Shown here: positions 22,301 to 59,438 of the stretch, one piece after another
Layout: every line of letters begins with the position of its first letter
Position numbering within the stretch: the first letter of the stretch is position 1
NCBI GenBank assembly: GCA_031763025.1
Contig: JASSKH010000026.1
Span: 6,602,934-6,666,933 of the forward strand
Length of the DNA: 64,000 nt
Direction: 5' to 3'
Source of the DNA: Macrocystis pyrifera
Taxonomy: Eukaryota > Sar > Phaeophyceae > Laminariales > Laminariaceae
The notes under the pieces: model-generated
The model's database searches: none
Told to the model about the DNA's origin: nothing
Seen by the model: the letters and a program-made list of their open reading frames with translations, nothing else
Position numbers and translations under genes: made by a program

Positions 22301-25300
22301 GGACCTAAGAACAGCCAACGACAGTCCCGCAGGAGGAAACCCGGCCACCGGGTCAAAACCCCCTGTATAACACATATACTCCAAACCATTGCAATTGAAA
22401 CAACGGCCGCATTCCAGACGATGACCATGGCCAGAAAATAAAATGCCAAGCGGTGCCCTACTCCCCCATGACCCTCAAAGTAGCGCAGGGTTGGCGACCT
22501 GACAAATTATTCCTCGCATCACTCAAACATGGTACTCATCGAATAATGCTCATACCCCTCACTCACCCTCCAAAGGAAGATTCAACAAGAACCTACGATG
22601 AGACTTAAAAGGGGTCGCAGCAAGGGATTTCCTCAAAATATCCGCGTGCTGCTCTTCCGAAGCTACGAACTGAATGTCGATCTTCTTAGCACGAAGTAGC
22701 TCTCTGACAAAATGAAAACGCACGTCGATATGCTTACTCCGAGCAGAACTAAGAGGGTTTTCAGCCAACGCTATGGCCCCCTGGTTATCCTCGAAAACCC
22801 GGACACATGATCCGCTTAGCTCTGGACAGATAAACGACAACACCGCGCCCGTAAACAAAGCTTCCTTCACCCCTTCACCCAGGGCAACATACTCTGCTTC
22901 TGCTGTCGACAACGTAACACACCTCTGCGTACTACTTGCCCAACTGACGGCCGCACCCCCTAGGGTAATTACCGTCCCCGATACCGAGCGCCTATCGTTC
23001 GACTTATCCGCATAATCAGCATCACTATACGCAGTCAAATCCAAACCCGAGCCCCGTACAAAAGTCAATCCCGTAAACCTGGTCCCGTGGAGGTAAGCCA
23101 TAATCTTCAAAACTGCCTTCCAGTGCCTCTCCGTTGGGTTGTGGGAGTGGCGCGCCACAGCACGCACAGCGTTCGAGATGTCCGGCCTCGTCATGGTCGA
23201 CAGCCACATCAAGCTGCCCACAGCCTCCCTGTACGGCCAGTCTCCTCCAAGTTCGCCCTCCTCTCTTGGACCTAGTTCCACACCGGGGGTCGCGGGGATA
23301 TCAGAGGATGAGTTAACACCAAAACGATTCAGCATGCTCTCAATGAACGCCTTCTGCGTAATCTCCAATGTCCCCAGTTCCCAGTCGCGTTTGAAAGCAC
23401 AACCAGTGTACCAAGTCAGTTCGCCAAGGTTATTCGTGGGAAATTTCATAGCTAGCGCGGCATGGAAATCTCTACATGTCTCATCCGATCCTGCGATCAC
23501 GATGTCATCTACATGAACGGCCATGATCAGTTCTACCTTGCCGTCCACAACCATGCGAAACACACACGGGTCAAACCTACACTGCTCCATTCCGTACTCT
23601 ACCACGGTCTCTACCAATAATCCGGCCCACTGCCGTCCGCTCTGCTTTAGACCATACAGTGATCTGTTTAGGCAGACGATCTTTCCTGACATGTCACCAC
23701 ACCCACCGGGCAGTTTCATGTATATCTCGGCGTCGAGTTTCGCGCGAACAAAAGCTTGTGCGACGTCTAGATGAAAAATCTTTAAACCATGTTCATTTGC
23801 AACAGCCGCCAGAAATTTAACTGACGCTGACGAGGGAGTCGGTGCAAACGTTTGAAAATAATCTACATCCTGCACCTGGCTAAAACCCTTAGCCACAAGT
23901 CTGGCCTTTGTCTTTACTATCAAGCCATCCTTATCCGTCTTGTAGGTAAACACCCATTTCGCACCTACAGGTTTCCGCCCTTTTGGCGGTGTCGCGGCTT
24001 CGTACGTACCGGTCGTTTTGTGACCGTCCAACTCAATTTTCATGGCCTCGTGCCACGCCGCTTTGTATTGAGAACGCTCTACATCTGCTACGGACTGTGG
24101 GGGCGGTTCTACGTCTTCCGGAAAACCACTCGGCATGCACACGCTCAACTCCCCTTTGTTCTCCACAGCAGGTCCTCCGGCCATCAAAGCCACTGCGTCC
24201 TCCGTCGTCCAGGGCGTACGATCCAGCATACTCCCAGGCTTCGTCCACGACTCGTACACTGCCGCAAGCAGCGCGTCTGCGGTCCTTTCATCCATCCTTA
24301 TCTGGTGCACAGCAGGTTCACCCTCCAGGCGTTGGCTTTGACCCCGGGTACGGCCCCGTACAGTCGGGGGGAGCCGGCCCCAGCTGCTGAGCTCGTGTGC
24401 TGGCCTTCCCGACAGGACCGCGGGGGGATCCTCACCGTCCCCTTGCCCGGTGTCGGAGGCTGATGCTGCGCCCGGGTCGTTTCCGGCCCTCCCTGTTGGG
24501 ACCGAGGAGGCGTCCACGGCGCCCCCTTGAGACGAATCCATCGTCTCGGGTGTTTCGGCCCTCCCTGTCGGGACCGAGGAGGCGTCCACGGCGCCCCCTT
24601 GAGACGAACCCATCGTCTCGGGTGTTTCGCCGCCGGCCTCGCCGGCGGCAGGTGCCTGCTGTGCGCGCTCCGGCATAAACGCGTCCAGGTCAAAACCCCA
24701 CGTCACGTCGAGGTCGTTCAAGTGAGCCAGACCGTTGTCCAGCTCATTCACCACCCCCCGCACCACCTCGATCCGACGTGCTCACGTCGTCTGCCTCTGA
24801 CCCCCCCTTTTCCGTAGACAGGGAGTCATTCGCCTGGGCAGGTACAGGTGGTGCAGGCGACACGCGTTGCCAGGTGACATTGCGCGTTATTAGCACAGTG
24901 CGGTTCTTTGTCAGCACTCGTACTGAATCACCGGGGTAGTTTGTTGCAGGGCCGAGGTAAAAGCACTCTTGCGCTTTCGCCTGTGACTTGTTTTCCCTCT
25001 TCACCTTGCAATAGCCAGGCTTGAGGAAGGGCAGTAGTACTACCGGGGGGGGGCTACCATGCCACATCTCATGTGGCGACTTGCTCTGCGGGTTAGCTGT
25101 TGTTGCTGTGCGGTTCAAGGCGTCACACGCCCAGTGGGACGCTTCCGCCCACAACGACGGCGTGGCCGGGAGTTTCGCGCCAGAAAAAAAGCTCTTGAGC
25201 CTGGATTCGGCCCGCCATTGCGGCCGTCTCTATCAAACCTAGCGCGCGCTCTGCTACTCCATTGTATTGGGGACTGTCGGCCGTCGTGAATCCCTGCTTG

Positions 25301-28300
25301 ATCCCTCGTGATCTACACAGGTCGCCAAACTTTCCCCCGCGGAATTCACCACCCCCATCAGATCGGACGATTACCACCGTAGAAGGGACACCGTCTGCAC
25401 GAGAATCCGCAAGGAACAGCTCGAACATTTCCGCGGCGTCCGACTTGTGGCGCATAAAGTACACCCACGTATACCGTGAAAAATCGTCGCGCACGATGAG
25501 AGTATACCGCTTCCGCCCGAGAGACTCTACCACCTTTGGTCCACTCAAATCCACAAAAACCCTCCCGAGCTTCTTATCTGCTCGTGTGTGTGTGGACTGC
25601 TTGATACCTTTGCGGAGACCCTTTGCCATGGAGCACCCTTTGCACTCCAGCAGCTTTCCCTCGAGGACAATCCCTTGCTGCTCCGCGGTCTTGCGAAGTA
25701 GTACCTCGTGGGAGTGTCCAGCAGCGCAGTGGAAATCGTTGATGTTGATTGCAGACTTGTTGGGCAGTTGTCCCGGGGCGAGTACAGCACAGGCATTTTC
25801 CCCACAACTGCGGTCGACCCGGTAGCCGTATAGGCTGTAGAGAGTCCCACTCAACGGGAACACGATCGAACGCTCCGACTTGAGCCTGATTACAACCCCC
25901 GTGGGGCACTCTTCGAAAGTATGGCCGTTTTTGACCAGAGTGGGCAGGGAAAATAAGTGGTAGCGGAGATCCGGCACGTGCGCAACGTTCGTAAGCAGCA
26001 CTTGCACGGGACCGTTTCCGGACCGAAAGACAACACTCACGTCACCGTAACCTTCGATCGCTCGGGTGGATCCGTCAGCGATTCGGAGAGTCAAGTTGCA
26101 TTCTCTATAATTGATCATGCAGTCAGCGGAGGGCGTCATGTGGGTAGACGCACCACTATCACATATCCAAGCCTCGTCTCCTACCTGCCAAGCAGACTCC
26201 CCTTCCCCCGCACCATCGCTCCACTTGCCTGTCTCTTCGGCCTTGAAAGCTGAGGCCTGGACCGTACCTTTTTCCGGGTCGTCGTCCTTGCCCCATCCTT
26301 ACTCGTCACCGCCATGACAGCTTCTTCTTTCGATGACGGGCAGACATCAGCAGCGTGCCCCAGCCCGTTGCATCGACTGCATCGATCCGTGGACATGGGA
26401 CAGGCATCGGCAGAGTGCCCGCGTCCCTGGCATCGACTGCATAGCTTCGCCGTACACTCGCTCCTCCAATGGCCCTTCTTGCCACACCTATGGCACTTGC
26501 CCACTGGATTACTTCCGCTGGCGGCTTTGGCATCGTTACCATTGCCACCAGCAGCCGCGGCCGAGCCATCACCGTCCTCGTTGGAGCCTCTACCGCCTCG
26601 TCCGTGGCCCCGTCGTCCACCTTTTTCTTTGCTATTTCCTCCGCCTTTCCGGCGACCACCACCGCCGCCGCCGCCGCCGGCGTACATAGCATGGCCTGCG
26701 TGGCCAGCGTTGGACCCCTTCTTCCTGTTTCCAGAAAGTCGGTGATGCCGTTCTCGAACAGCCTTGATGATGTCCTCACGGTCGATGCTGTCACGTGATG
26801 CCAGGTTCCGAGCCTCCACTTCGTATTCGGCAGGCAGAGCGTCAATAAATATGGTGTACAGCATGTGGTCATCTACTGACATTCCTGCTGTTCGCATTTC
26901 CGCGGCAAGATCCTCGATCCTGCCCATCTCCTCGAGCGGGTTGCTCCCCGGCGCCATCTTAAAACTGTTAAGGCGTCGGGAGAGGTCTGATTTGGCTCCC
27001 GTCGTCTGAGGGCCGTACCACGCAAGGAGAGCGTCCCACGCTTGCCTCGGCGAGGTACACCGGTGCAAAATGCTTTTATCGCTCTTGCTCTTGAGGGCCG
27101 TCGACAGGAAATTCCATGCCAGTGTATGCCTGTGCACACTTTCGCGGCTAAACCCCCTAGCGACAAGCATCGAGTTTTCGGTGTTTAATTCCCCTACGGG
27201 AATGTACTGTGGTGGATCCGACACGAAAGCAGACAAGAAACCAACTCCTTTGGCGTAATACCGCGCGTCTCTTGTCCAGGGGTTGAACTCAGATTTTAGC
27301 CCACTAAACGATGGCACAGGAGTGTGTTTGAAGGCCAAATGGCGCGATAGAGGCAGATCAAATCCACCACCCAACTCACCGCCAGGGTATGCACCCCATC
27401 CTCCTGTCCTCCCATGCTGGTCTGGATGACCCCTCGGTGGGCCAACCTCGACAGGCAACGCAGTTCTTCCGCGTCCAGTTGCTCCCAAATCTGGCGAGGC
27501 GCCCTGACGCAAATTTGTCTCTTGTTCTGCTGCAATCTCTCTTACAGCAGTGGGTACTGCCCCTTGTGGGCTCTCCCCTACAGCAGTGCTACTCACAGCG
27601 CTGCCGGACTCCGATCGGCCGTTGTTCCTCATGAACTCGGCCATCATGTCCCTCATGGCGTTCATCATCGACGCCTCTCTTTTCTCCATCGCCAGTTCGA
27701 TCTCGCGTCGCAGCGTTTCAACGTCACGTGGAGAGTCGGGCTCTTCTTGAGCCGATCCCTTCGAGGGCATCGTGGGCTTCTGGTACTAGACCTCAAACGT
27801 TCAAGTTCACTAGTGTGTTCGTAGAGTCCAAGCCTGGATGCCCTGACCACCACGTGGTCTGATGAGTTGCTTTATAGTCGTTGTATTAGAGGACAGATGA
27901 GGGGAGAAAGAGCGGAGCCTAGCTCGTAGCTCGGAGCAGAGAACGGAGCAGAGAACAGAGTGCTCAAACTCTCCTCGTGAACACACGGCATAATTCATAA
28001 TAACGCCTGCGAAGATATACGCAACCCTCTACAACTTGTAACCGGCGCTGCTGGAACGATCCAAACGAACAATCACGGGGAAGTAAAACGTTGAGGTTCG
28101 CCTCCGAAAATCAACACGTGCGCTGCACGCTACTGCAGGCGGCCGGCCGGTTAGTGGTGTCCAACGTTTCGACTCCTATTTCCTATTGTTGTTAGACCAC
28201 CCCGAGTGAAACGTACTACGCCACCACAAAGACCCCAGAGGGAGGGGGGGGGGGGGGGGGGCGTACTCATTTGTTGCTTGCGTTAGTCATTTGACCATTG

Positions 28301-33654: not shown

Positions 33655-34157
33655 TGTGATATGAGTAGAGTATTCATGGGCTATATATATAGATAATACG
33701 TTGCAGTCTTGTAGTTTCACGAATACGAGAATAATCCAAAGAATGGATTAACCCGGCGGATATTCCGTTAGTCGAGAGTATCGTTATTTTAGGAATGTTC
33801 CCTAGGGCGGATAGCCCGTTAGACGAGAGTAATGTTCCTTGATGCAGATAGGACTACGAAGTGAGAAGTTCTTATATTAGCAGAAGAACGATCGGTAGCC
33901 ATAGGAAAGTTCTGTTGGAGTACATCAGATAAGAGGAATTTAGGAGAGCTTGTGGCGTGGGGTGGGACGAGTATATCTGGGCGTCGAGTCCCGCCCCCCC
34001 CTACCTCTCACTTCTCTACCAGAGCACCTCCTCAGCTCTCGCCATCAATAAGAAGATCTAAATCAGAAGAAGCGAAGCACTGCTTTCCAGCTGCCAGAAC
34101 AACCTGCGTCCCTTACCACTACCCTTACCACTACCCTAGAGCGGTCTCCGCATCACA
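33655..34157 (+). repeat. Gypsy element 5' LTR
   Basis: 503 bp, TGTGAT...ATCACA. A TATA-like CTATATATATAGATAA at about 33,681-33,696 is a candidate promoter element; the 3' LTR has one substitution in it. No standard tRNA primer-binding sequence follows; the next bases are TCTGACGTCGTCGCATCC. Confidence 0.95.
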
Positions 34158-37100
34158 TCTGACGTCGTCGCATCCAACGAATGTTCTGGCCAAGCTTGGG
34201 ACTGCAGCGCTTCTTCTAGATCTTCTCACGATCGTGTGAGCCATCCCTATCCCTGTATCCGGGAGGCATCTGGTTTTGAAGTCAACTTTTTATTTATTTA
34301 TTTTTGTTTATGTTCCCTGTTTCTCGCTTCTTTCGTTCTTCTTGCTCTCTCTTTTCTTTCGTTTTTTCTTCTTTTTATTTTACGAACCTGCGTTACTGAG
34401 TGCGTTTGTAGTGTAGAGCGTGACAAGCTGCCTAGTGGCATAAGTAGACGCTTCTCCCCCCCCAGTATACCAGTATAGGTGAGTAGACGCTTCTTCCCTC
34501 TTATCAGGCACCGTCAAATCGCACGTGCAAGTACGTACAACAAGCTCTGTTGTTCGTAAGTATTGATTGGTGCTATTAGCAGTATGATCGAGGTTTGTTT
34601 TTACGCTCCCTATACCCCGTCTCCGCCGTGGAATGACGAGATCGATATCCTCCACGATACGTGACACCACGTGGTTGAATGCACCTGGAGACCCCCCAAA
34701 ATGACCTCGTGCTCATCGCACAAACCAAGCAGCGTTTTCCTTTGTACCCCTCCGCCTCGATATATGCCCGCCCTTTCACAGGGAATGCACGTAGTAAGTA
34801 CTACTGTAGGTGGAACTACTGGCACATTCTTGCCAGCAGTCATTTTGTCCGCATCTTCCGGTTTTATACTCGTGTTGTATGGGATTTGACCCTTACCACA
34901 ACTACAAAAGAAGCTGCTATCGTACTGATAGGACAAACACGCAGCAGTACCGACACCTTATTCTTTGGTATGTGATATGTATGCCGGTGGTGTGACCTAC
35001 TACGCCATCGTTAGTATACGCATCTGTGAGCAGCGTACGAACGGCTCGACCATCATTTCGAATTGTATCCGCTGGTATCCATCGCATGGAATATTCGCCT
35101 GCGAGTTCTTGAGAGGCCATTATTATTATTATTAATTTTTTTTTTTCCTGATACGAGCAATGGTATCACCGGCGTCCCCGGTGGCTTGGTAGGTGGTCCG
35201 CGAGCCTATCAACATCAATTTCGTGAGTTCGAGTCTCACCGAGTGCATGCTCATAGGGACTTTTTCTTGCATAAAATTGATTAGCGGAAAGCGCGAGAGC
35301 GTGAGTTAGCTGTACATTCGATGAAAATCGACGAGCAGTGGGAATGCTGAACCCTATGCGCGATAAAAAATAAAGGCACGTACCGGGGGGGAGAAGGGAC
35401 GACACCTGTGACCACGGCTTGTCCAGAAGATCGTCGAGGGTAAAACCTCCTACGAGTGGGCTGGAAAGTAAAAGTGATGATAAAAAAAAAAAAAACAAAA
35501 AAAAAAAACGTGTTGACTGACCTTACTTGCGACCCCCTGATAGCGAGAAGAGCCATATATATTGTTTTATTTATTTATTTTTTCATGCCCTTTGGTTACT
35601 GGATTTCAAACCACATACTGGCCTACAGAGACTGGTATACGAGCGAGGTACAAATAGTGAATAGTGATACCATAGTACGTAGTAATAATATTACGTATGT
35701 AGTAGCGAAAATTCCCGTGAACCCCCCCTCGTTCCCTGCCATATATTTAGGTAGCCAAACGATGCACAATTGGGTCGGTCCCCCCGTCTCGATGTGATGG
35801 AGTCGCACATCCATCGTATAGGAACGCATATACTCGCAGACGAATCTTATATGGTTGCACGTAGTATTAATAGCTCTTTTGGGACCAGCGTACATATGTG
35901 CACCCCTCTTCAGATTGGCCCATCCTTACGCTGCTTCTACCCTACGAGGTACAGAACAAGCGGCATGATGCACCTCCTGCGGCGCCTTTACTATAAAAAC
36001 AGGGCGCATCTTGCCGAAATTGACCAGATTTCTGCTACCTTTTTTACCCCACCCCCACAGCCTATAGGATACAAACAACGGTCATTATTATTTTTTTTTT
36101 TTTTATTTTTTTTTTTTTGCTGCTGCTCTTTACGTGCACGTTTTCCAGCGTTGACGACATAATAAGACGGCTTTATGTTGCTGAACCTTGGCCCACGGCT
36201 GCCTGTGTATGCCTAAATTTCTCAGTTTGACGCCAGAAATAAGGTATATGCCGCACAAATAAATCCGGCTACAGCTCCCCACGTGCACGATCTTCCGCGT
36301 TAACGACACAACGAGGCTTCATGGCGCCCACAACCTTGTCTGACTACTGCTGTTTACGTCTACCCCCCCCAGCTGTACTACATTAACAGAATGTACGACA
36401 CCTGATCTGGTCCGAATATTCTGTTTGGTCGTGTTTGTTTTCCCTCCCTTTCCCGTTTCGCTTTCGACTTTTGTTTTTTTTTTTTTTTTTTTTTTTCCCG
36501 ACTTTTAAGCCAAAGCAGGGTAGACACTGTTCGAGTTTGTAACAAGCGTTATTTTCCAGCGTATCCCATCCCCACCCGCTTTTACAAATATGCAGGGTAC
36601 AGGCTGCCTAGAACTGTAACACTACAAAGGCTACACAAACGAGTAACATATCATCTGTTTATCCCTTGTTTGTCCAGCTTCTCACAAAAACAGCAGCTGC
36701 CTGCTGCTCATATATGGAACATAATAACTGTGGCCCGGGCAGTGACCATATCCAAAGAGATGAACTAAATGCTGGCCAAATTAAACAAAATAATATACAA
36801 TTTTTCGCGGCGGATTAGAGTATTGGACCTCCCCACAGGAGCCGAATGATACCCTTTTCTACATTTTTACGTACCGGGGTCTATTTATTTATTTTTTGTT
36901 TTCCCACTTGTGCTACTTCTACGATACCCTACGTATCTCACATCGTATCGGACCTCGCGACGCCCCGAAAATGCACCGGTTGCTGTCTGTTTTGCCACGG
37001 AACGACAAGCTGCCCACCGTTTAGGGAATCGCCCGATATTCTGTGCAGCTACTAAATAGTGCCGGCATGCTGCATTTTTTTTTTCCCCGACTCGACCTTC

Positions 37101-37525
37101 ACATTTTCTTTACGGGTACTCTTATTTGTATCCCAACGAAAGGTCTTGCGCTGCCCACACTCAGTAAGCGTCACGCCCTGTTATCATTACGAACATTGGG
37201 CATTTCAGACGGAGTTATGTTCAATTCTGTTCAACTGATATCACTTGAGTGACCCCGGCGCGACTACCGTCAATCAAACGCGAGGCGCCTGGCGCTAGTT
37301 AGATGCCCTCAACTATAAAAATATCCTTCGACGGGCACTAAAATCGTGGCACGCACAACCTCAACACCCCCTATCGTACGTCCTTACCGTCACTCCTTTC
37401 TCTCTCCTAGATCGGTTTGTTGGTATTGTAGCCGCCTACCCTGATCCAAGCCTGGATCCACCCGCCCTCTCCATCTTCCACCAAACCTTTTCCCGCCCCA
37501 GTACAAGCGTTCCACCCGCCTAAAC
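34158..37525. other. 3.3-kb leader of the Gypsy element, function unknown
   Basis: No family hit recognised. The plus strand has only short open frames, A- and T-runs (35,480-35,510; 36,090-36,118; 36,475-36,496) and a tRNA-like box at about 35,173-35,246. On the minus strand several open segments look protein-like: 35,120-34,917 (starts MASQELAGEYSMRWIPADTI), 34,936-34,610 (CSCG, CIPCERAG, LCDEHE, possible zinc ligands) and 34,670-34,380. They follow each other in different frames. It may be a nested insertion or a captured gene in reverse orientation. Confidence 0.4.
35173..35246 (+). other. tRNA-like promoter boxes (possible SINE or tRNA relic)
   Basis: An A-box-like TGGCTTGGTAGG lies at about 35,182-35,193. 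A perfect T-arm (GTGAG, TTCGAGT, CTCAC at 35,223-35,239) matches the B box, and a TTTTT run follows at 35,261. Acceptor and anticodon stems do not pair, so it is not a working tRNA. Confidence 0.35.
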
Positions 37526-39170
37526 ATGGCCGAGAAAGCTTCCTCCACCAACATTCCCGGCGCCCCACTCTCCCGACGCCACCAACCCCCGCGAGGCGAG
37601 GTATGCCGCAAGGGCCTTTCGCGCTACCGACGACGACACCCCTGGCTTCGAAACCATTCTGAGCGACTTCACGCTACACCCCACCACACCGGGATCTTCT
37701 CCAATGGGAGCAGGCACGACCAGTGCCGGGCCTACTATCAACCCGGAGGTCTCTGCACAGGAAACCTCCACCCTGGCTCTCAATCCGGGGCGTTACCAAG
37801 GCGATCCCACGGCCCTCCGTGAGCGCCGTGCGGCCCTCAAAGCCCACCACGAGCAGCTCCTCCTTCTCGCGAAAGAGGGGCGCTGACCTCCTACTCGTGT
37901 TACCGCCGTTCCCCACCCCTTCCTCGAACCCTTTCGACTCCACCTATGGGACTACAGCTGCGACCGCGGCCACCACGGCCCAATCGCAGCCGTTCGCTCC
38001 TCACCATGGGCACCCTATACGTCCGCCGCGATGTCTAGGACCACCACCTCCCAGCCTCCCAAAAACCAAACTGGGACCATAATGTCCCAGGCACCACTAC
38101 CGGCCCAACCCTTGCCAGCCCCCATACCCACTGGGCACCGGCACCCGCAGACGTTCGGCTTTGAGCTCAATGACTGGGTCTTCCTCGACGCTAAGCTCCG
38201 CTGGATGCAGAGTACACGCGACGCGACGGCCTCGGATGTCTCGCTAGAGGTACACCGTGTATGGCGGCTCTTCACACCCAACTGTAACCCGTCGATCACT
38301 TTCGTTCTGGCCCGCGCCGCCACCGAGGGTGTTTCTTCCGAGTTCATCGGGGCCGCCCATACCCGTTTACTCGAGCCACGGTATTTTCACTCGAACGCCG
38401 GCCGCGGCTACGTGTGGAACCCAACCGTCTCGACCCGCTCCCCCCGACACCCTCAACCACCCGCCCCACGACGGACATGCCATCGCCGGCGACACCGCCC
38501 CTTCCCACCTCGACAGCGCCGCCCCCTACGACGACAGCGCCCCGCTCCTCACGAGCGCGCAGCCTGATGACGAGAGCCAACACGGAGCCCACGACGGAGG
38601 CGGAACGTCGTGGTGTCCCACGCCCAAGCCCAACGAGCTCACGGTGACCACTGCCCCAACTGCAATGGCACGGACATAGTATGAAGACCTGCCCCCTGCG
38701 CTTCCCAACACGTTCGGCATCTCAGTCCGGTAGTCGGACACGCCTAGCGCCAATGGCAGCAGAGGATGCTCTTATATCGCCGTGGACACTACGAGCACAA
38801 CCTAGAGCAAAACTCCAACCGCTACGACAACAACAACCGTCGAGGCAACAACAACAACAACCGCAGCGGAAACTACAACAGCAACCGCTCCAACCAGAAC
38901 CACTCCCGCAACTACCGCGGCAACAACGGACGCTCCGACAACTGGCGCCACAACAACGGCCGGTCATACGACAACGGCAACCGACAGTCGCCAGGGCAAC
39001 AGTTCCAACAACAACGCATCGAGCCTGCCCCCTCGTCTTCCGCGTTGACGGTGCATACCCCTGCGACCAATACTTCCGCACCTGCCGCCCCCGCGAACAT
39101 GCGGATGGGCAGCACCAACTCGGGTACCCACCCGAACCAACGGCAGCCGGGAACCTTCCGCACCAACTGA
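37526..39170 (+). pseudogene. Gypsy gag-like region, frameshifted
   Basis: Starts MAEKASSTNIPGAPL. Protein-like segments then occur in successive frames: ALNPGRYQGDPTALRERRAA (to 37,886), FELNDWVFLDAKLRWMQST and RLFTPNCNPSITFVL (38,031-38,430), HCPNCNG near 38,650, and a very Asn/Arg-rich stretch (RGNNNNNRSGNYNSN, 38,790-39,010). The basic Asn-rich tail and the CxxC motif suggest nucleic-acid binding, as in nucleocapsid. At least two or three frame changes are needed to read it through, so this copy is broken or the region is mis-sequenced. Confidence 0.6.
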
Positions 39171-39257
39171 CAAGCCGATGGTGGAGCAACTGCCGCATCT
39201 CCACCAACAGCATCTACTGCGAGCACCCGAGGCTCCCAGGACGCACGAGTAAATCAC

Positions 39258-42200
39258 GTGCATCACGGCTCCCCGACCCCTGCCCTCCAATGCCCCCCCC
39301 CTACCCCAGCCCATTTCACAGTCACTTGTTCAAGCACTGATCATCTTGCCCAAGTGATTGCCTTGAGGTGTGGGCGGGAGGAGGCCAAGACGCCGAGCCC
39401 CACCGGGATGCTCCACTCGACGTCTTCTGGCGGTGAGCAACGCTGCTTGCCGACTATTGCCGAGACCCCAGACATTGCTACCCTGGGAAACGTCTCGACG
39501 ATTACGGCTACCAGCGGTTCCGGTTCACACGAAACTACTGTTTCGTCTACCGGGCCATCGCCCCCTGAGCCTGCCTCATATTGGCCGCTCCATACGCGCA
39601 TGTTCCAGCATGCGCGCATTTCTTGTGACAGCGTTGAACCCGCGAACGACGGGCTTCCTCCAGCTGCCACGGTGTTGACACCACTGCTGTCCCTGAGCTC
39701 GAGGGACAGTCCCGTTTTAAATACGGAAGACTCGCGACCAACGTCGACCAGGGTCTGCCCTGAGCCCCCTGACCCGTCCTCCTCGCCTGCTTCGCGCAAA
39801 GCGTGGACACGGACCCCAGGTGTGGCATCCCCTAGCGAGTATGCCCCTGTTCTCCAAAAGTTGGACGATAGGGCGCTTGAGGGTCGTCCCGCCCGGCTTA
39901 TATGCCCCGGCGAGGACCGCCCCGGTACCTCGGCTTTGCCGAGCAATTCCCCCGCGAACACGAGGGTTCCGGCCAGCACCGCTCGATCGTTGCTGACTCT
40001 ACCTCCGTCGACGCCAGGCGGCGATAGGAAAGATTATCGTCGCCCCCCACCCCCAACACAAAAGACGCCATCATCTGCACACGTCACCGCAGAGGCCGCC
40101 TCATCTTTCCACTTCTTCTGGGACTCCTCTTCGGTCTTTTCGCAGTGGTACCTGTGCGACATCGAACACGATGGCGTCACATACAACTGCGCTGAGCAGA
40201 TGATGATGGCGCAGAAGGCCGCGCTCTTCGGGGACATCACAACTGAGCGCCGCATCAAAGCGACCCGCGACCCGGCCCGCCAAAAAGCACTTGGGCGAAC
40301 CGTTTCCGACTTCGACGAAATGGTCTGGGAGCGACACCGCTACACCATCGCCCTCTACATTAACTTCTCCAAGTTCCGCCAACACCTGGAGCTACGGGAG
40401 GAGCTAATAGCAACCGGCGACAAGCACATCGCCGAGGCCAGCCCACACGACCTCATCTGGGGCATAGGCTTCAAGGCCGACCATCCGGACGCCTGTGACC
40501 CGACGCGTTGGCGTGGTCGGAATCTGCTGGGCAGGATACTGATGGACGTTCGAGAAAGCCTCGGCGCCAATCGCTCCGCCCAGCCTCCATTTCCTCCCCA
40601 TCTTCACGACCCGGAGCCAACACCCGCCCCCACCGACTCCACCCGGGTCTCCCCCACAGCCGACGGCATCCACGAAACCAGCCCGACCCCTCCATGGCAG
40701 CCGCCTACCTCTCCACTTGGGCCACTCCTACTGCCGTCTACCCCCGACGCCTACCCCAGCAGCCACTTTGCCCAAGTGTCCACCATCAACACCGCAACTC
40801 ACAGCCACCTCCCTACCCGCCGGCCGCCGATACCGGAACACGGACCATGCCTTACAAGCGGCATCATTACCGTCGACGACGCGTCGTTCACGACGAAAGT
40901 ACTCGTGTACAGCGGCCCCACCGCCACTACGCGCCGCGAACTCGTGGCACTGCTCGATACCGGCTCGCCCCAGTCGTTTATCACCGCAATCGCGGTGGAA
41001 CAACTGAAGGCTTCCCAGGCAGCCACCGATGCGTGCGAACGGCACAGTTCCCCCCGTTCATGGGGAGGTTTTGGCACTTCACCCCCCCTCTCCACCTCCG
41101 TCTCCATCCGCTTAAGCATCCAGTTTATGCGCCTCCAGTCCCCCACTGTTGCCCTGGCAGTATGGGCCTGCGTAGTTCCTGCAGGAACCATGCAGCACCC
41201 CATCCTTCTGGGACGAGACAGCTGGATGCGCTTCGAGCAACGCTCGTATACCACGCTCCAGCAACAGCCCACCCCCCCCCACCAACCTCCCCGGCGAACC
41301 CGCGGTGAGCTCTCCTTGAACCACCATGACCCCAACGGAGCCTCTGCATTCATTTCCAACGATCGTTCCACTGACGACGTCTACCCCCTCCGATTCGCCG
41401 GCAACAAAGCTATTTCGCTTTCCTCCACCCCCAAGCTCGTCAAGGTCAACCTGGCGCGTCAGTCAGGCGCTCCAGCATTTACCGGGAACTACATGGTGAA
41501 CATGCTCCCCCGCGAGAACCCCCTGTCCGACCCGGCCATTTTCGTCTCCGACGAATACCTAACGGTCCCACTATCTGGATCTACCGATCTCGAGCCGGGC
41601 GACCTCCTCGGAACCTCCTGCTCCCCACTGGTACAGGTACCACTTTCCACCCTTGGACACCCTTCCTTGGCCCCTCCCCATCCCCCTCCGATTCCGGATG
41701 TACATGCCCTCCACGACAACATCCCCGTGGCCGACCAGAGCCCATCGACAGACGACTCTCCTACCGCACCAAAAGCCCCGTGCCCACAACTCCTTGCACG
41801 CCTCAACACCGACCAACGGGACAGCTTCCTCGACCTCTGGGAACGTCTGCCATTACACCTACGCGACGTCAACTTCGACCTGCACGGTTCTGGATGGACC
41901 CCGTCGGTGATCAACAACCTGGGAGACGTCCTCTGCGAGTTCCAGGACGTTTTCTCCACCTCAAAAACCGACTTCGGCTCGTGCTCGCTGATGCCGTTCA
42001 AGATCACCGTACCCCCGGGCAGCGCACCGGTCACTTCCCGCCCCTACAGAATCAACCCCATCCTCGCAAAGAAGGCAGACGCGGTATTAGACCAGTACCT
42101 GGCCGCCGGCCTGATCCAACATTCTACGTCGCCATACTCAAGCCCTATGGTGGCCATCCCCAAAAAGGATGGAGGTGTCCGGATTACGATCAACTACAAG

Positions 42201-42415
42201 AAGCTCAACGCCATCAGCTCCCTCGGGCAACTCCCCATCCCCCGCGTCGACGAAGTCCTCGACTCCTTGGGCAAAGGTCGCATCTTTTCTCTCTTCGACC
42301 TGGTCTCCTCGTTCCACCAAATCACCATCGACGAGGACACCATCCCTTTGACGGCGTTTTGCACTTCCAACCGGCTGTTCGAATGGCTTGTTATGCCGCA
42401 AGGAAGCAGCGCCGC
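39258..42415 (+). CDS. Gypsy pol part 1: NADAR domain, aspartic protease, N-terminal reverse transcriptase
   Basis: Residues 1-280 are Pro/Ser/Thr-rich. Residues about 284-436 (40,107-40,566) form a NADAR (YbiA-like) domain: FHFFW start, YNCAEQMMMAQKA with the key Glu, DLIWGIGFKA, and the closing GRNLLGRILMDVRE. NADAR enzymes cleave N-glycosidic bonds in riboflavin precursors or remove ADP-ribose from guanine. Residue 567 is the catalytic Asp of the protease (VALLDTGSPQSFIT). From about residue 890 come Gypsy reverse transcriptase motifs SSPMVAIPKKDGGVRITINY and FDLVSSFHQI (catalytic Asp near 1014). The frame is lost after LVMPQGSSAAPG by one extra base in a C/G run near 42,415. No intron signal separates NADAR from protease. 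Confidence 0.88.
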
Positions 42416-43500
42416 CCCCGGGCTGGTTCGTGAAGGTCATCAACGAGGTCATCAAGGACCTGGAACGCGTCGCCGCGTACCTCGACGACATCATCGTCTT
42501 CGACCCCGACCCCACCGACCACGTCGCCAACATGAGAGCCCTCTTCGCACGCCTCCGGAAGCACCACCTCAAACTCTCCCCCGCCAAGGCCAAAATTGGC
42601 GCCACCACCGCCGATTTCCTGGGACACACCATTTCCGCTGGCGGCTACAGCCCAAATTCCGACAAGGTCGCCGCCCTCACCAGAATGCCCATGCCGACCG
42701 ATAAGAAGCAAGTGCGCTCACTCCTTGGAGGCATCAACTACTACGGCAAGTTCCTGCCAAACCTTTCTCGACGTCTGCGCCCCATCAACGCTCTACTCAA
42801 GCAAGGCGCAACGTGCGACTTCACCCCCGCCATGGAAACCACCGTACGCGCCATTCTCCAAGAACTTGCCGAACCGCCGATCCTCGTCTACCCCGACTGG
42901 GACGCCGTCGCCGACAACTCCCGCCCCTTCCGCCTCTACTGCGACGCTAGCATCGACGGCTTCGGAGCGACCCTTGAGCAAGAGCAAGCCGACGGCTCAG
43001 TCCGCCCCATCCTCTTCATCAGCCGTGCCACCCTGGACTCCGAGCGTTCATGGACACCCCTCGACCTCGAGGCCGGGAGCATCGTGTGGGCGATCAAACG
43101 CCTCCGCGGACACTTATGGTCCACCCGCTTCCAGATCTACTCGGACCACAAGGCGCTCGAGAGCATCGCCAAGGTCGGAGAACATAACGCTCGTGTCCGG
43201 CGATGGCTCGAGTTCCTTTCAGCGTACACCTACACGCTGGAGTACCGGAAGGGCACGACCAACGGCAACGCCGACTTCCTCTCCCGGCTTCCCCAACCAG
43301 CCACCGACGCCGACCGCACCGGACGCAACCGCCTCACTGGCCCCGATACCGTCGGCATCTACCTCATCCGCCCCTGCGGCTTCGCGCCGAACGACCCTTC
43401 CACCCCGGGTATCGGCTTGGGTGGGCTCGTGTCCCCCCCTTCCAGACCCATCCCGACCGTGCAGCCGCTCCCCTTCACTGACGACGACTTCCGCGACTTT
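42416..43500 (+). pseudogene. Gypsy pol part 2: reverse transcriptase palm/thumb and RNase H
   Basis: The frame is +1 to part 1. It begins GWFVKVINEVIKDLERVAAY with the catalytic box YLDD (42,478-42,489). GHTISAGGYSPNSDKVAAL and LLGGINYYGKFLPNLSRRL follow. RNase H has LYCDASIDGFGATLEQE, PLDLEAGSIVWAIKRLR, YSDHKALESI and GNADFLSRLP. It is open to 43,611, but the following proline-rich spacer continues better in another frame from about 43,500. Confidence 0.88.
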
Positions 43501-44785
43501 CGCCTACTCGGACCACGTATGGAGCACCCCACCCTTTTCCCCCGCAACCCACACCTTCATCGGGCCCATTGCGACAAGCGACTCCACCACCGGACAGCTT
43601 GCCGGCACTGAGAATGCCGCCGTGAACACCGGAGCTCCTCCAGGCTTGGCTTCCATGCCGTCCGTCGTCTCTCCGCCGCCCACCATTGGCGCCACGACAC
43701 CAGCCCTTTCAGGTCTGATATCTTCTCGGACCCGCCATCGCGTCGCCGCTGCCGCGGGAACCCCTCGGCCCACAGCCGACTACCGGTTTGGACGCCGACC
43801 GCCACCCAAGCCATCGGCACCCACCACGCAAAGACCGACCCCTTTAACAACGCCCTCGCCGCCGGCACAAACACCACCGTCAGTGCCCCTTCCGGAGCCC
43901 GTCGTCGAACCCGATGATGGCCCCTACCTCCTCGCCTGCGTCGAGCACTACACCTACAAAGACTGGGCGCGAGATCAACGCGCGGAGCCCCTGTGCTGCG
44001 CCACCATCCGCCTTCTGTCGTTGGACTCTCCCACCCCCACGCCGCACGACCTCCTGGACTTCATCCCCCCGGCCCGGCGCCCACAACTTTCGGACGTCCT
44101 CACTCTTGCCTCCAAAAGCAAGCTACACCGTACCGACGACGAAACCACCCTCCTGGTTCAACGACCACCCACAACCTCATCCGGGAACAGCCTACCACCA
44201 CCCGCCCCCTCTACCCCACGCGTCTACGTTCCAATGTTAATGCGCCCTTGGGTGCTGAACACATGCCACGCCACCACCTCTCTACACCTGGGAGTCACCC
44301 GAACGGTCCGTATGTTGGCACGTTTCTTTTGGTGGATTGGCATGGACGCTTCCGTCTGCTGGTGGATCCGCCGTTGCCTTCAATGCCAGGCGCGGAAGAC
44401 CTCCCGGCACACCATTCGTTGGCCCATCCTTTCTCTTCCTTTGCCCAACGGGCCTGGTATCACCGTCAGCGTCGACTACTTCGGGCCCCTGCCGCTCACG
44501 CCGCGCGGGAACGTCCACATCCTCCTCTTCACAGACCGCTTCAGCCGCCGCGCCGATATGTATGCCGTTTCAGCGGCGCAGTTCACGGCCGCCGGCACTG
44601 CCGACATCTTCCTGAACGAGTACATCCCTCTCTGGGGGTGCCCGGTTACACTTCTCTCCGACAACGGACTACACTTCACCTCCAAGCTTGCGAACATCGT
44701 CTACGAACGCCTTGGCATCCACAAGGTCAACACCAGCTCCTACCACCCCTGCACCAACGGCGGCGTCGAGCGCGTCAACCACGTA
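43500..44785 (+). pseudogene. Gypsy pol part 3: spacer and integrase
   Basis: After a Pro-rich spacer and a segment YLLACVEHYTYKDWARDQRA comes the HHCC zinc-binding region (CHATTSLHLGVTRTV ... CLQCQARK). The DDE core follows, with Asp in VSVDYFGPLPL, Asp in VTLLSDNGLHFTS and Glu in NGGVERVNH. The frame breaks right after the catalytic Glu, near 44,785, where a 2-base gain or 1-base loss is implied. Confidence 0.87.
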
Positions 44786-46203
44786 CTGTCCAAATGCTCT
44801 CTATGGTTGGCAACGAACAGCAGACCGACTGGGACGTGCTGCTCCCACACGTGTCGTCGGCCTACAACAATTCCGTGAACGCCGCCTCAGGGCTTGCACC
44901 TAACGAAATCCACATGGGCCGCCTTCCTCGCCTCCCGCTCTCGGGGTTCGAACCCGACAATATCGGCGGTCACCAAAGCCTGGACCGCGATCACCTGGTT
45001 TACATCAACCTCGCCACCGACCGACAACTACGCGCCTATTCCCTCGTCCGCGAACTATACCGACTCACCGTCTCGCGTCTTCAGCGCCGCAATGCGCCCA
45101 TCATGGCCGCCCTCCTAGCATCCCCCCCCTTCACCGTAGGCGGCTGGGTTTGGGTCTACAACTCCGCCTCAACCATCCGCCAAGGCGTCAAAAAGGGCAC
45201 CGACGCAACCGTCCTCAAGACGAAGCTTTCCCTGAACTGGAATGGCCCCTTCAAGGTCCTCGCCGTAGGGCCGACGCCCGCCTCAAACACCCCTGACAAT
45301 CGCCCCCTTCACGACAAGCTACTTTTCCTCGACCTTCCATCGGACCTTCCGGGACGGGACTCCAAGCCACGCGTATCCGTCCAACGATGCAAACCTTGCC
45401 GGAACCCCGACGACACCAGCGACATCTCCAAGCATCTGCCCGCGGACCTTACTACATACGTGCTCACAGCTTCCGCCACCAAGTCCCCCCCTTACCACGT
45501 CACCGTCGACGACGTCACTCCTCCACCGGAACGCCTCGAGGTCGAGCAGATCACTGGCCATCAATTCGTACGCGGCCGCGGCGGGGTCATCGCCGTTCTG
45601 TACGAGACTCACTGGACTGGACTTCTCAGCTCCTCGTGGGAACGCGAGCTGGACCTTCAACACTTCCGGCGCCACATCCTATTTTACTGGTCACGATCAC
45701 CAACCCAGCACCGCCAGACGAACCGCCTCTACCGCCAGATGCGCATCGGCGCCGCTCACCGCGAACTGGCCCGATCCCAAGGACAAATCTTCCTCGCCCC
45801 AGGCTACGCCTTGGTCTCCCGCAGCCTTTGGCTCCACAACTTCAGCACCACCATCCTACCCTCCGGAGCACACATATGGTACAAGGCGCGCGACGGCCTT
45901 TGGTGGCTGGGCAAGGTCGCTCACAGCTCACCCCCTGACGCCTCTTCGGGAACTCCGCCGGAGTCTTCACCGGGAAGCTCCTACATCGTCCGGTTTCTGG
46001 ACGACCCCGGCCCGATCAAGATCGACCTCCAACCCGCCCGCTACACTACAGCACGGAACGCCGTATACGGATCGTGGTGTCTTCAACGCCATGGGAATGG
46101 GAGCCTAGCACGTGGGGTGCTGCGGAACTCTGATGTGTCCCGCGGAACCCCCACCGTTTCCACCCCCCCCCCCCTGGTTAGCCTTAGTTTAGTATTTCGG
46201 TAG
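44786..46203 (+). pseudogene. Gypsy pol part 4: integrase C-terminus, chromodomain and Tudor/SH3-like segment
   Basis: Continues the integrase with MLSMVGNEQQTDWDVLLPH and SGLAPNEIHMGRLPRL. The chromodomain is at about 45,530-45,690 (LEVEQITGHQFVRGRGG, YETHWTGLLSSSWERELDL). Chromovirus integrases use it to target modified histones. About 50 residues later a second small beta-type segment occurs at about 45,850-46,040 (GAHIWYKARDGLWWLGKVA and SYIVRFLDDPG), with the aromatic/acidic spacing of Tudor or SH3-like domains. The stop is at 46,201-46,203. The second assignment is inference from pattern only. Confidence 0.8.
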
Positions 46204-47739
46204 TTCTGGGTATTTGGTTCTGGTTAGTCTACAATATCTTAAGAGTAGTTCTTCAGGGTTAGTCTTCAATAGTCATCAGCAGTCATCTTCTTGGGAGTGT
46301 TTGTTTCCATCTACCGCCACCGGTATCGCTTGACCGACCCCGTGTTGGCTACCGATCCGAGGCCGTGTATGTTTCTTTTTTTGGGTGTGTTTGGGAGTAT
46401 CATCGTCCCCCCCCACCCCCCCCGTTTGTTTTTCTTCTTATCGTCTACGGCTCCGTGTAACCTCCTTACGTTCAGGCCACTGACTCGTAGCGATACCTTC
46501 ATTTGCATTTGTGTTTGTACTCCACTAGCCTACAGCCAATTATCGGCGATATCACGCCGAGGTAAAATCGTGTTGTAGCCTGAGCTGTGCTCTGACCTTA
46601 GTCGACTTCCGCCGACCCGTGTTTCAGACGATCCTCGAGCTAAGACTATATCGAGCTTCCAGCTCACCCGTGTTTCTTCCATGTTTGACAAGTAGGGTCC
46701 CGATAGCATTGCCGCCCCGGAAGGCCGCTGAATTATCGGCCATACATATGCGGTTCGGACATGATCGATTTCTCCTGACCTGTGTCCAGCTTTTTGTCTG
46801 TTTTCTGGTCCCGATGGTATTTCGTTTTCTCTTTCCCTTTTCTTCTTCATTCTTTCTTGTTCGGTATTCCGCACACCCCTCTGTCCTCTGGCAAACGACA
46901 CCAAGTTTGCTGTCGCCCCGGTTGACCGAGTTGCACACGCTAGTGTTTGGGCCCCGCGCTATCTACTACTTCGAACTGCACGCATTCGGTCGATTTTCTT
47001 GCGGATTTTCTTGCCGCCACCGTCTTTGAGTTTGTTTTTGTTGAGTTGGCTACCTTGCTACGTTTGCTGGTTTTGTTCACACCACGAACAGGTCTCCGAG
47101 ACGCCGCGTAGTTTGTTGCGTCTATCGGTTTTAGTAGTCCCTAGTACACGCAGTCCTCATAGCACTCTAGGTGTGTCCCTTCTGTCTCGCGTGATGTCTA
47201 CCATGTTAGGACCAGCGCCACAAGACAAGGCATGGGGCCTAGCGGATATATATATATATGTTTTTGAACTGTGATCACTGTCTCCTTTTTAGAGTTTCCT
47301 CGTTTTCCAACCCTGTTGAGCGAACAACCCTTTCGTACCTCCTTGGGCCCCAGACAATGGCTGTAGTAATACGCTTGTACGTCCTTCTTTTGCTTTCACT
47401 TCGGTCTTCGTTTTCTTCTTCAGCCTTCGCTTCGGTTTCTGTCTCCTTTTGCGTTCGTCTTTCTTTGTTTTCATTTTGGGTGATTTCTCCTTTCGCCTCT
47501 GCTTTGAGTTCTGTCTCTCTCTCTCCTTTAGTCTCCCTTTCAGTGGTTGTTCTCAGCGAACACCCCCTCGTCGTAGTATTTGGGTCTTATTACGGGGTGT
47601 GGGGGGATCTATAGCCTCATTTCTTTTGTTTCGAATAGCCGCATCTTCGACCACCTTTTTCTGGCCGTTCGGGATGAACTTTGTCATCACCCTCCGACCG
47701 TCTTGTGGTCTGCATATACGACTATTCAGGGTGGGCTAA
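46204..47739 (+). other. 3' untranslated part of the Gypsy element
   Basis: No coding family recognised. T/C-rich tracts with CTTTCG-type motifs. The sequence before the 3' LTR (CAGGGTGGGCTAA, 47,727-47,739) is at best a weak polypurine tract. Confidence 0.5.
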
Positions 47740-48240
47740 TGTGATATGAGTAGAGTATTCATGGGCTATAGATATAGATAATACGTTGCAGTCTTGTAGT
47801 TTCACGAATACGAGAATAATCCAAAGAATGAATTAACCCGGCGGATATTCCGTTAGTCGAGAGTATCGTTGTTTTAGGAATGTTCCCTAGGGCGGATAGC
47901 CCGTTAGACGAGAGTAATGTTCCTTGATGCAGATAGGATTACGAAGTGAGAAGTTCTTATATTAGCAGAAGAACGATCGGTAGCCATAGGAAAGTTCTGT
48001 TGGAGTACATCAGATAAGAGGAATTTAGGAGAGCTTGTGGCGTGGGGTGGGACGAGTATATCTGGGCGTCGAGTCCCGCCCCCCTACCTCTCACTTCTCT
48101 ACCAGAGCACCTCCTCAGCTCTCGCCATCAATAAGAAGATCTAAATCAGAAGAAGCGAAGCACTGCTTTCCAGCTGCCAGAACAACCTGCGTCCCTTACC
48201 ACTACCCTTACCACTACCCTAGAGCGGTCTCCGCATCACA
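47740..48240 (+). repeat. Gypsy element 3' LTR
   Basis: 501 bp; differs from the 5' LTR at about four substitutions and two bases in a C run. Followed directly by the duplicated CAGG. Confidence 0.95.
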
Positions 48241-55188: not shown

Positions 55189-55444
55189 TGTTCGTTTGGA
55201 TCGTTCCAGCAGCGACGGTTACAAGTTGTAGAGGGTTGCGTATATCTTCGCAGGCGTTATTATGAATTATGCCGTGTGTTCACGAGGAGAGTTTGAGCAC
55301 TCCGTTCTCTGCTCCGTTCTCTGCTCCGAGCTACGAGCTAGGCTCCGCTCTCTCTCCCCTCCTCTGTCCTCTAATACAACGATTGTAAAGCAACTCATCA
55401 GACCACGTGGTGGTCAGGGCATCCAGGCTTGGACTCTACGAACA
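55189..55444 (+). repeat. Copia-2 5' LTR
   Basis: 256 bp; one difference (GATTGTAAAG against GATTATAAAG) from the 3' LTR. Confidence 0.95.
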
Positions 55445-55489
55445 CACTAGTGTATTTGAACGTTTGAGGTCTGGTACCAGAAGCCCACG

Positions 55490-56310
55490 ATGCCCTCGAA
55501 GGGATCGGCTCAAGAAGAGCGCGACTCTCCAATTGACGTTGAAACGCTGCGACGCGAGATCGAACTGGCGATGGAGAACAGCGAGGCGTCGATGCTGAAC
55601 GCCATGAGGGAAATGATGACCGAGTTCATGAGGAACAACGGTCGATCGAAGCCAGGCAGCGCTGAAGGCAGCGTTGCTGTAGGAGAAAGTCCAGCAGAGG
55701 TAGGAACCACTGCTGTAGGGGAAAGCCCAAGAGGGGCAGTACCCACTGCTGAAGTACGAGAGACTACTGCTGCTGTTGAAGCAGGCATTGGTCGATCGGA
55801 GTCCGGCAGCGCTGAGCGTAGCGCTGCTGTAGGGGAGAGCCCACAAGGAGCAGTACCCACTGCTGTAAGAGAGATTGCAGCAGAACAAGAGACAAATTTG
55901 GGTGAGGGCGCCTCGCCAGATTTGGGAGCAACTGGACGCGGAAGAACTGCGTTGCCTGTCGAGGTTGGCCCACCGAGGGGTCATCCAGACCAGCATGGGA
56001 GGACAGGAGGATGGGGTGCATACCCTGGCGGTGAGTTGGGTGGTGGATTTGATCTGCCTCTATCGCGCCAATTGGCCTTCAAACACACTCCTGTGCCATC
56101 GTTTAGTGGGCTACAATCTGAGTTCAACCCCTGGACAAGAGATGCTCGGTATTACGCCAAAGGAGTTGGTTTCTTGTCTGCTTTCGTGTCGGATCCACCA
56201 CAGTACATTCCCGTAGGGGAATTAGACACCGAGACGATGGGTTCGTCTCAAGGGGGCGCCGTGGACGCCTCCTCGGTCCCGGCACGTGGGGTTTTGACCT
56301 GGACGCGTTT
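55490..56310 (+). pseudogene. Copia-2 Gag N-terminal fragment
   Basis: Starts MPSKGSAQEERDSP at the same position after the LTR as in the other copies. It carries an in-frame expansion of AVGESP-type repeats (about 55,665-55,870) not seen in Copia-1 or -3. Gag sequence stops at about 56,232 (VGELDTE) and is joined to a 72-bp repeat unit, so the zinc knuckles are lost. Confidence 0.88.
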
Positions 56311-56937
56311 ATGCTGGAGCGCGCACAGCAGGCACCTGCCGCCGGCGAGGCCGGCGGCGAAACACCCGAGACGATGCGTTCGTCTCAAGGGGGCGCCGTG
56401 GACGCCTCCTCGGTCCCGGCAGGGAGGGCCGAAACACCCGAGACGATGGGTTCGTCTCAAGGGGGCGCCGTGGACGCCTCCTCGGTCCCGGCAGGGAGGG
56501 CCGAAACACCCGAGACGATGCGTTCGTCTCAAGGGGGCGCCGTGGACGCCTCCTCGGTCCCGGCAGGGAGGGCCGAAACACCCGAGACGATGGGTTCGTC
56601 TCAAGGGGGCGCCGTAGACGCCTCCTTGGTCCCGGCAGGGAGGGCCGAAACATCCGAGACGATGGGTTCGTCTCAAGGGGGTGCCGTGGACGCCTCCTCG
56701 GTCCCGGCAGGGAGGGGCGAAACAGCCGAGACGATGGGTTTGTCTCAAGGAGGCGCCGTGTACGCCTCCTCGGTCCCGGCAGGGAGGGCCGAAACACCCG
56801 AGACGATGCGTTCGTCTCAAGGGGGCGCCGTGGACGCCTCCTCGGTCCCGGCAGGGAGGGCCGAAACACCCGAGACGATGGATTCGTCTCAAGGGGGCGC
56901 CGTGGACGCCTCCTCGGTCCCAACAGGGAGGGCCGGA
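56233..56937 (+). repeat. 72-bp coding VNTR in Copia-2 (one displaced plus eight tandem units)
   Basis: Each unit encodes 24 residues of the type ETPETMGSSQGGAVDASS. Copia-1 and Copia-3 have two units. Every unit contains the inverted repeat GAGACGA-TGGGT-TCGTCTC. One extra unit lies at the deletion junction (56,233-56,284). A perfect palindrome GCCGCCGGC-GAG-GCCGGCGGC precedes the main array. Confidence 0.92.
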
Positions 56938-57294
56938 AACGACCCGGGCGCAGCATCAGCCTCCGACACCGGGCAAGGGGACGGTGAGGATCCCCCCGCG
57001 GTCCTGTCGGGGAGGCCAGCACACGAGCTCAGCAGCTGGGGCCGGCTCCCCCCGATAGTACGGGGCCGGACCCGGGGTCAAGGCCAACGCCTGGAGGGTG
57101 AACCTGCTGTGCACCAGGTAAGGATGGATGAAAGGAGCCGCAGACGCGCTGCTTGTGGCAGCGTACGAGTCGTGGACGAAGCCTGGGAGTATGCTGGAGC
57201 GTACGCCCTGGACGACGGAGGACGCAGTGGCTTTGATGGCCGGAGGACCTGCTGTGGAGAACAAAGGGGAGTTGAGCGTGTGCATGCCGAGTAG
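56311..57294 (+). pseudogene. Copia-2 linker ORF with VNTR
   Basis: Starts within LERAQQAPAAGEAGGE, runs through the eight repeats and the Pro/Gly-rich linker (GQGDGEDPPAVLSGRPAHEL), then loses the reverse-transcriptase frame through one inserted base near 57,138 relative to Copia-1. Confidence 0.8.
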
Positions 57295-58822: not shown

Positions 58823-59182
58823 GTCTCATCGTAGGCTCTTGTTGAATCTGCCTTTGGAGGGTGAGTGAGGGGTATGAGCATTATTCGATGAGTACCATGT
58901 TTGAGTGATGCGAGGAATAATTTGTCAGGTCGCCAACCCTGCGCTACTTTGAGGGGCATGGGGGAGTAGGGCACCGCTTGGCATTTTATTTTCTGGCCAT
59001 GGTCATCGTCTGGAATGCGGCCGTTGTTTCAATTGCAATGGTTTGGAGTATATGTGTTATACAGGGGGTTTTGACCCGGTGGCCGGGTTTCCTCTTGCGG
59101 GACTGTCGTTGGTTGTTCTTAGGTCCTAGCAAGTCTTGAATGTCTTTTCGGTCTCGTCACTGCTGTGAAGAGCCAGGGAGGG
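58823..59182 (+). other. Copia-2 3' untranslated region with polypurine tract
   Basis: Non-coding; closely matches the equivalent part of Copia-1. AGCCAGGGAGGG at 59,171-59,182 abuts the 3' LTR and is the likely polypurine tract. Confidence 0.75.
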
Positions 59183-59438
59183 TGTTCGTTTGGATCGTTC
59201 CAGCAGCGACGGTTACAAGTTGTAGAGGGTTGCGTATATCTTCGCAGGCGTTATTATGAATTATGCCGTGTGTTCACGAGGAGAGTTTGAGCACTCCGTT
59301 CTCTGCTCCGTTCTCTGCTCCGAGCTACGAGCTAGGCTCCGCTCTCTCTCCCCTCCTCTGTCCTCTAATACAACGATTATAAAGCAACTCATCAGACCAC
59401 GTGGTGGTCAGGGCATCCAGGCTTGGACTCTACGAACA
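59183..59438 (+). repeat. Copia-2 3' LTR
   Basis: 256 bp; pairs with 55,189-55,444. Confidence 0.95.

Follow-up and report, generated by a model that had tools for sequence, protein, structure and literature searches.

The LTR retrotransposon and its reading frames

We analysed a 64-kb stretch of DNA (referred to throughout as the window, meaning the whole of this stretch) and found that positions 33655-48240 are occupied by a 14.6-kb LTR retrotransposon of Ty3/Gypsy order (Table 1). The two LTRs are 98.8% identical, differing by 4 mismatches and 2 gap positions, and a CAGG target-site duplication was observed on both of their outer sides. The domains follow one another as gag-like region, NADAR, protease, reverse transcriptase, RNase H and integrase, which is the Ty3/Gypsy order, with the protease recognised by its motif and by a profile match below its cut-off (Peptidase_A2B, E=0.011). 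The gag-like region includes an Asn-rich stretch (38766-39170) and CCHC-like halves near 38652 and 38672 that lie in two frames, and scanning this region with Pfam gave nothing above a cut-off. A preliminary description of the locus had placed the NADAR domain between a gag-like region and the protease; the position ahead of the LLDTGS protease motif was borne out, while the upstream neighbour is gag-like only by its position and composition.

Table 1. Features of the retrotransposon, with window coordinates and the basis of each assignment.
Feature	Position	Strand	Basis or remark
5' LTR	33655-34157	+	503 bp, ends TGTGAT...ATCACA, CAGG just before
Gag-like region	38031-39170	+	pieces in several frames; position and composition only
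Stop-free frame	39171-42701	+	1177 codons; contains NADAR, LLDTGS and reverse transcriptase part 1
NADAR domain (PF08719), YbiA type	about 40113-40562	+	profile, structure search, model, contact mapping
Codons of identical ADP-ribose contacts	40194 (E), 40215 (K), 40284 (K), 40296 (R), 40326 (W), 40338 (R), 40434 (E), 40449 (D), 40458 (W)	+	alignment to 8BAU
NADAR-protease linker	40641-40700	+	DGIHETS (GIHETS at 40665)
Aspartic protease region	40941-41309	+	LLDTGS at about 40950; motif, profile below cut-off
Reverse transcriptase, part 1	42156-42425	+	NADAR frame; RVT_1, residues 967-1056
Reverse transcriptase, part 2	42421-42633	+	YLDD, different frame; RVT_1
RNase H (PF17917)	42913-43227	+	Pfam profile
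Integrase	44228-44749	+	H2C2 zinc-binding E=1.1e-15; core E=2.1e-6, 28.4 bits, below cut-off 32.6
Chromodomain	45538-45678	+	profile below cut-off in window; supported by model and relatives
Second barrel, probable Tudor of PHF19/PHF1 type	45859-46029	+	profile A3
3' LTR	47740-48240	+	501 bp, ends TGTGAT...ATCACA, CAGG just after

The 1177-codon stop-free frame is far longer than the runs obtained from 200 mononucleotide shuffles of 38001-46200, in which the longest stop-free run had a mean of 234 codons and a maximum of 403. The NADAR domain had been said to share its frame with both protease and reverse transcriptase, and this is correct for the protease motif and for the first half of the reverse transcriptase, but the second half lies in another frame. 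The change occurs inside the reverse transcriptase near 42.4 kb, with the second half of RVT_1 and the RNase H found in ORF 42388-43611, the integrase in the third frame (ORF 42596-44878), and the tail back in the second frame (ORF 43993-46203). Two relatives (P0004 and P0031) show the start of pol, and in the window this upstream part lies in a frame different from that of the NADAR, so that the window copy has frame breaks on both sides of the domain. Because frames change both inside the reverse transcriptase and upstream of the NADAR, the window copy looks defective, barring indel errors in the assembly.

The coding body has a GC content of about 0.6, compared with mostly 0.42-0.54 in the trailer and in the long leader, and the lower-GC leader that separates this body from the 5' LTR (34158-37400) is over 3 kb long. 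No tRNA-type TGG was found directly after the 5' LTR. No gene was assigned in the stretches 34158-38030 and 46204-47739, where the frames reach at most 169 codons, three pieces of 37524-38420 gave no match when scanned with Pfam, and an Rfam scan of the 64-kb window returned 0 matches at the gathering score.

Copia-type sequences were also observed in the window, at 21989-28071 (minus strand) and 55189-64000 (plus strand). Both contain RVT_2 (frames 22562-24781 and 57122-58819), and the plus-strand stretch additionally contains gag_2, a zinc knuckle and Pol_BBD in frame 61097-63634. Positions 60314-64000 are 98.9% identical to 24381-28071 in inverted orientation. A 72-bp tandem unit occurs within these stretches at 56358-56946, 24473-24629 and 63752-63897, with 8.2 copies at one of its three places and about 2 at the other two.

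The NADAR domain and its predicted ADP-ribose site

A Pfam profile search gave a PF08719 (NADAR) match of 161.5 bits (E=2.6e-47), in which residues 286-435 of ORF 39258-42704 cover profile positions 1-162 of 163. The preliminary description had read a complete NADAR domain at 40107-40566 and had suggested a PF08719 search as a check; the match agrees closely with that extent (Table 1), spans nearly the whole profile and is far over the curated cut-off of 35.1. The domain also matched TIGR02464, the NCBIfam model of riboflavin-intermediate N-glycosidases, at 154 bits against a cut-off of 73.7. Searching solved structures with the window NADAR sequence identified 8bau (E=2.8e-18) and 2b3w, which is YbiA (E=3e-9), and the same two were found at 1.3e-38 and 3.2e-22, respectively, with profile A2, an alignment of the window NADAR and 54 of 98 NADAR proteins. 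An AlphaFold2 model of the domain had a mean pLDDT of 97.7, and its Foldseek comparison with the PDB returned 8bau (E=1.6e-10, TM 0.83) and 2b3w (E=2.3e-7) as the only matches at E<=0.001, so the modelled domain is predicted to have the YbiA fold.

Structure 8BAU is that of the P. nicotianae NADAR enzyme, with chain numbering equal to that of Schuller et al. (PMC11543638) plus 2. The ADP-ribose contacts of this enzyme are listed in that paper, which also reports that it hydrolyses guanine-linked ADP-ribose. In the pairwise alignment from the structure search, 9 of 11 contacts are identical in the window NADAR (E43, K50, K75, R79, W89, R93, E125, D130 and W133 in P. nicotianae numbering; codons in Table 1), and the remaining 2 of 11 are conservative changes (Y84 to F and D86 to E). 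The residue at the E125 place is described as Glu in the YbiA subfamily, Asp in the BC4488 subfamily and His in phage NADARs (PMC11543638), and the window NADAR has Glu here. For the DarT1-linked E. coli C7 NADAR, a Lys at the K50 place and an acid at the E125 place are reported to be needed for efficient guanine-ADPr hydrolysis (PMC11543638), and the window NADAR keeps counterparts of both, in the K50-place Lys and the YbiA-type Glu. The domain is thus a NADAR of YbiA type, as first proposed, with a predicted ADP-ribose site that is intact, and judged by sequence and model it seems capable of binding ADP-ribose adducts and hydrolysing them.

The P. nicotianae enzyme (8BAU) and E. coli YbiA (2B3W) have the same fold, length and ADP-ribose site as the window domain, but these two are described as stand-alone proteins, whereas the window domain lies inside a retroelement polyprotein. 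The DarT1-NADAR toxin-antitoxin systems of the BC4488 subfamily have the chemistry of the same superfamily, but by the subfamily rule given in PMC11543638 they carry Asp where the window NADAR has Glu.

Relatives, a probable single capture and the Pol tail

A fusion of NADAR with a Gypsy element is already known from Ectocarpus, where Dinatale et al. 2025 (PMC12477816) describe a YbiA-family NADAR in the Pol of a whole Gypsy lineage (Gypsy-12_Ec32) and term it highly conserved across that lineage. The window element fits this lineage, as compared by published description only: both have the Ty3/Gypsy order, a YbiA-family NADAR in the N-terminal part of Pol and a C-terminal chromodomain, which in the window element follows the integrase. 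They differ in that the main text of PMC12477816 gives Gypsy-12_Ec32 a chromodomain only and assigns a Tudor to Gypsy-10_Ec32, whereas in the window a probably Tudor-like barrel follows the chromodomain. The same paper describes a NADAR in ORF1 of a Tx1 LINE of Crassostrea gigas, likewise a retroelement but of another class. To the published fusion our analysis adds the mapping of the active site, a set of relatives, and evidence for a tail with a chromodomain and a probable PHF19-like Tudor.

The preliminary description had proposed a search for other Gypsy copies with a NADAR. Among the 97 proteins of the NADAR search and those of a search with the tail (522 found, 120 listed), we identified at least 13 database fragments with a Gypsy-type NADAR (P0002, 3, 4, 8, 23, 31, 36, 49, 74, 76, 85, 88 and 141). 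Nine of the 13 (P0002, 3, 8, 23, 49, 76, 85, 88 and 141) clearly share the polyprotein flank, aligning beyond the NADAR over 35-93 residues at 49-73% identity. Two more, P0004 and P0031, align at only 6 of 18 flank residues in the window frame, yet their pol start matches in another frame. The flank alignment of P0074 is weak (9 of 20 residues), and P0036 shares no flank and was counted on domain similarity alone. For five control relatives, 0, 0, 0, 0 and 15 residues aligned outside the NADAR, the last being P0056 with 5 of 15 identical. Identity to the window was higher in the NADAR than in the flank for 11 of the 12 fragments with any flank aligned, the exception being P0076 (flank 28/44, NADAR 62/119). 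The linker word GIHETS was sought in all fetched proteins, with 18 of the 98 NADAR proteins inspected by eye, and is common to P0003, P0008 and P0076, while P0049 has GIHDTS; the full forms are DGIHETS in P0003 and P0008, NGIHETS in P0076 and DGIHDTS in P0049.

Most of the contact positions are retained in the fragments that reach them. The Glu at the E43 and E125 places was observed in 8 of 8 fragments each, Lys at the K50 place in 10 of 11 and at the K75 place in 6 of 10, Arg at the R79 place in 11 of 11 and at the R93 place in 10 of 10, Trp at the W89 place in 10 of 10 and at the W133 place in 7 of 8, and Asp at the D130 place in 7 of 8. The D86 place, Glu in the window, is Gln in 9 of 9 fragments. 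Departures at a contact other than this one were found in 6 of the 13 fragments: P0003 (K50 and K75 to N), P0008 (K75 to T), P0049 (K75 to N, W133 to T), P0002 (D130 to S), P0141 (K75 to Q) and P0085 (V at the Y84 place). Some of these departing fragments may be decayed copies. As aligned, the pocket as a whole is retained among the Gypsy-type fragments, with the K75 and D86 places loose. A one-off host insertion had been named as the alternative that would undo the initial reading; the domain instead recurs in related elements, and by these comparisons it is a family trait of the Gypsy elements.

When 240 NADAR rows were placed in a tree, the six Gypsy-type rows (the window and five fragments) formed one side of a branch with SH-aLRT 93, not starred. 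The enclosing set of 19 rows was weak (81) and mixed, and 99 of the 230 inner branches were open. The tree omitted the short fragments P0023, 31, 36, 49, 74, 85 and 88 as well as P0141, other proteins with an aligned part below 135 aa, and locus matches below 130 aa or with stops. From these sequences a single capture of NADAR by the lineage is likely.

Wider searches gave more distant matches. Viral contigs scanned with the window NADAR yielded 0 confirmed relatives of 2 stretches, and with alignment A2 they yielded 527 relative-encoding stretches (used in the tree only), of which the best 80 were at 40-51% identity. The 693 matching phage records were all below 60% identity, and in bacterial and archaeal genomes the best 80 of at least 591 matches had best-segment identities of 42-55%. 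By sequence identity, the closest relatives among everything searched are the Gypsy-type fragments. When proteins of about 631-2009 aa were searched for NADAR polyproteins, 1 of 271 candidates matched (P0001, NADAR-WD40), which counts against abundant intact NADAR polyproteins in that database; neither NADAR search covered proteins of about 276-630 aa, and P0141 came from the tail search.

This last fragment (310 aa) has the first part of the NADAR joined to the tail of a same-type element, and its sequence suggests a copy with an internal deletion. Its join ties the NADAR and the chromatin-reader tail to one element. The tail itself, at 45451-46110 after the integrase, combines a chromodomain with a second barrel that is probably Tudor-like in one element. 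Profile A3, an alignment of the window tail with 48 of the 120 proteins listed among the 522 found, matched the PHF19 Tudor at E=0.0019 over the second barrel. In the individual rows of this alignment, the second barrel matched Agenet in 11 of 49 (best E=0.013) and Tudor_2 in one (E=0.052).

Possible roles of the domain

Our preferred reading, to which we give a probability of roughly 45%, is that the NADAR may be a packed guanine-ADP-ribosyl hydrolase that cleans the element's own RNA or cDNA, a proposal drawn from the sequence and from analogy with characterised enzymes. The domain would be synthesised within the Gag-Pol precursor, taken into the virus-like particle and released by the protease. 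There it would cleave ADP-ribose off guanines of the element RNA or nascent cDNA, where such adducts would otherwise block reverse transcription, and the element may thereby escape ADP-ribosylation by the host, to the benefit of transposition. In one study, NADARs were the only members of the tested hydrolase families to take ADP-ribose off guanosine in RNA (PMC11833690), and NADARs are reported to hydrolyse guanine-ADPr in DNA (PMC11543638, PMC11125620). A precedent for the arrangement is described in positive-strand RNA viruses, another class of element, whose polyproteins also have an embedded NADAR (PMC9503650), and for the Gypsy NADAR itself PMC12477816 proposes processing of RNA intermediates.

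The intact site, the place before the protease motif and the retention in Gypsy-type fragments support this hydrolase reading, and we counted against it the contact departures in 6 of 13 fragments, the Gln at the D86 place in 9 of 9, the TIGR02464 match and the P0076 flank. E. coli YbiA is reported to have given cells no protection from DarT1 or YarT, while E. coli NADARs are reported to be active in vitro (PMC11125620), so activity alone would not prove a role in countering ADP-ribosylation. The fuller claim, that a working guanine-ADP-ribosyl hydrolase is present in the particle because the host ADP-ribosylates retroelement RNA or cDNA, in an element whose Pol also bears two chromatin readers, we consider doubtful.

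The TIGR02464 match (154 bits, cut-off 73.7) would suit a small-molecule N-glycosidase that clears riboflavin intermediates or NAD and ADP-ribose derivatives in the particle or the host, as proposed for YbiA and phage NADARs, and phage NADARs are argued to meet mainly low-molecular-weight ADPr derivatives (PMC9503650). Riboflavin housekeeping would, however, be of no evident benefit to a retroelement, and we consider this role improbable. The tail suggests a different use of the same pocket: an element that seems to use readers, namely a chromodomain and a second, probably Tudor, barrel, might employ an intact ADP-ribose pocket as a targeting module that mainly binds ADP-ribose marks where chromatin is damaged or PARP-modified and, together with these readers, steers integration. 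The location of the NADAR speaks against this, since it lies upstream of the protease and away from the integrase and would be off the intasome after processing; moreover, the catalytic Glu was retained in 8 of 8 fragments reaching it, which binding alone may not need. Such targeting appears to us an unlikely function.

It could also be that a single capture brought the domain in and that it persisted as a spacer or as a folding unit of Gag-Pol, with enzyme activity not needed. The broken frames of the window copy and the six fragments departing at contacts besides the D86 place are what such a structural passenger would lead one to expect, but the retention of both Glu residues (E43 and E125 places, 8 of 8 each), the greater similarity of the domain than of its flanks in 11 of 12 fragments, and the high conservation across the lineage noted in the published survey (PMC12477816) all argue the other way, and we assign this explanation a low probability.

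A literature search joining ADP-ribosylation, LTR retrotransposon, reverse transcription and hydrolase returned nothing relevant, judged by title and the start of the abstract. If the fuller claim of host ADP-ribosylation of retroelement RNA or cDNA is true, this would be, to our knowledge, the first retrotransposon with a counter-defence directed at ADP-ribosylation of nucleic acid. Defence by nucleic-acid ADP-ribosylation has been reported from bacteria, where it acts against phages. A similar conflict has been proposed between animal hosts and RNA viruses (PMC9503650). Ectocarpus is described as silencing its transposons without an apparatus that resembles those of animals or plants (PMC12477816), and a further layer of defence would therefore be of interest. 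If an active hydrolase aids transposition of these elements, this would imply that hosts use nucleic-acid ADP-ribosylation against retrotransposons.
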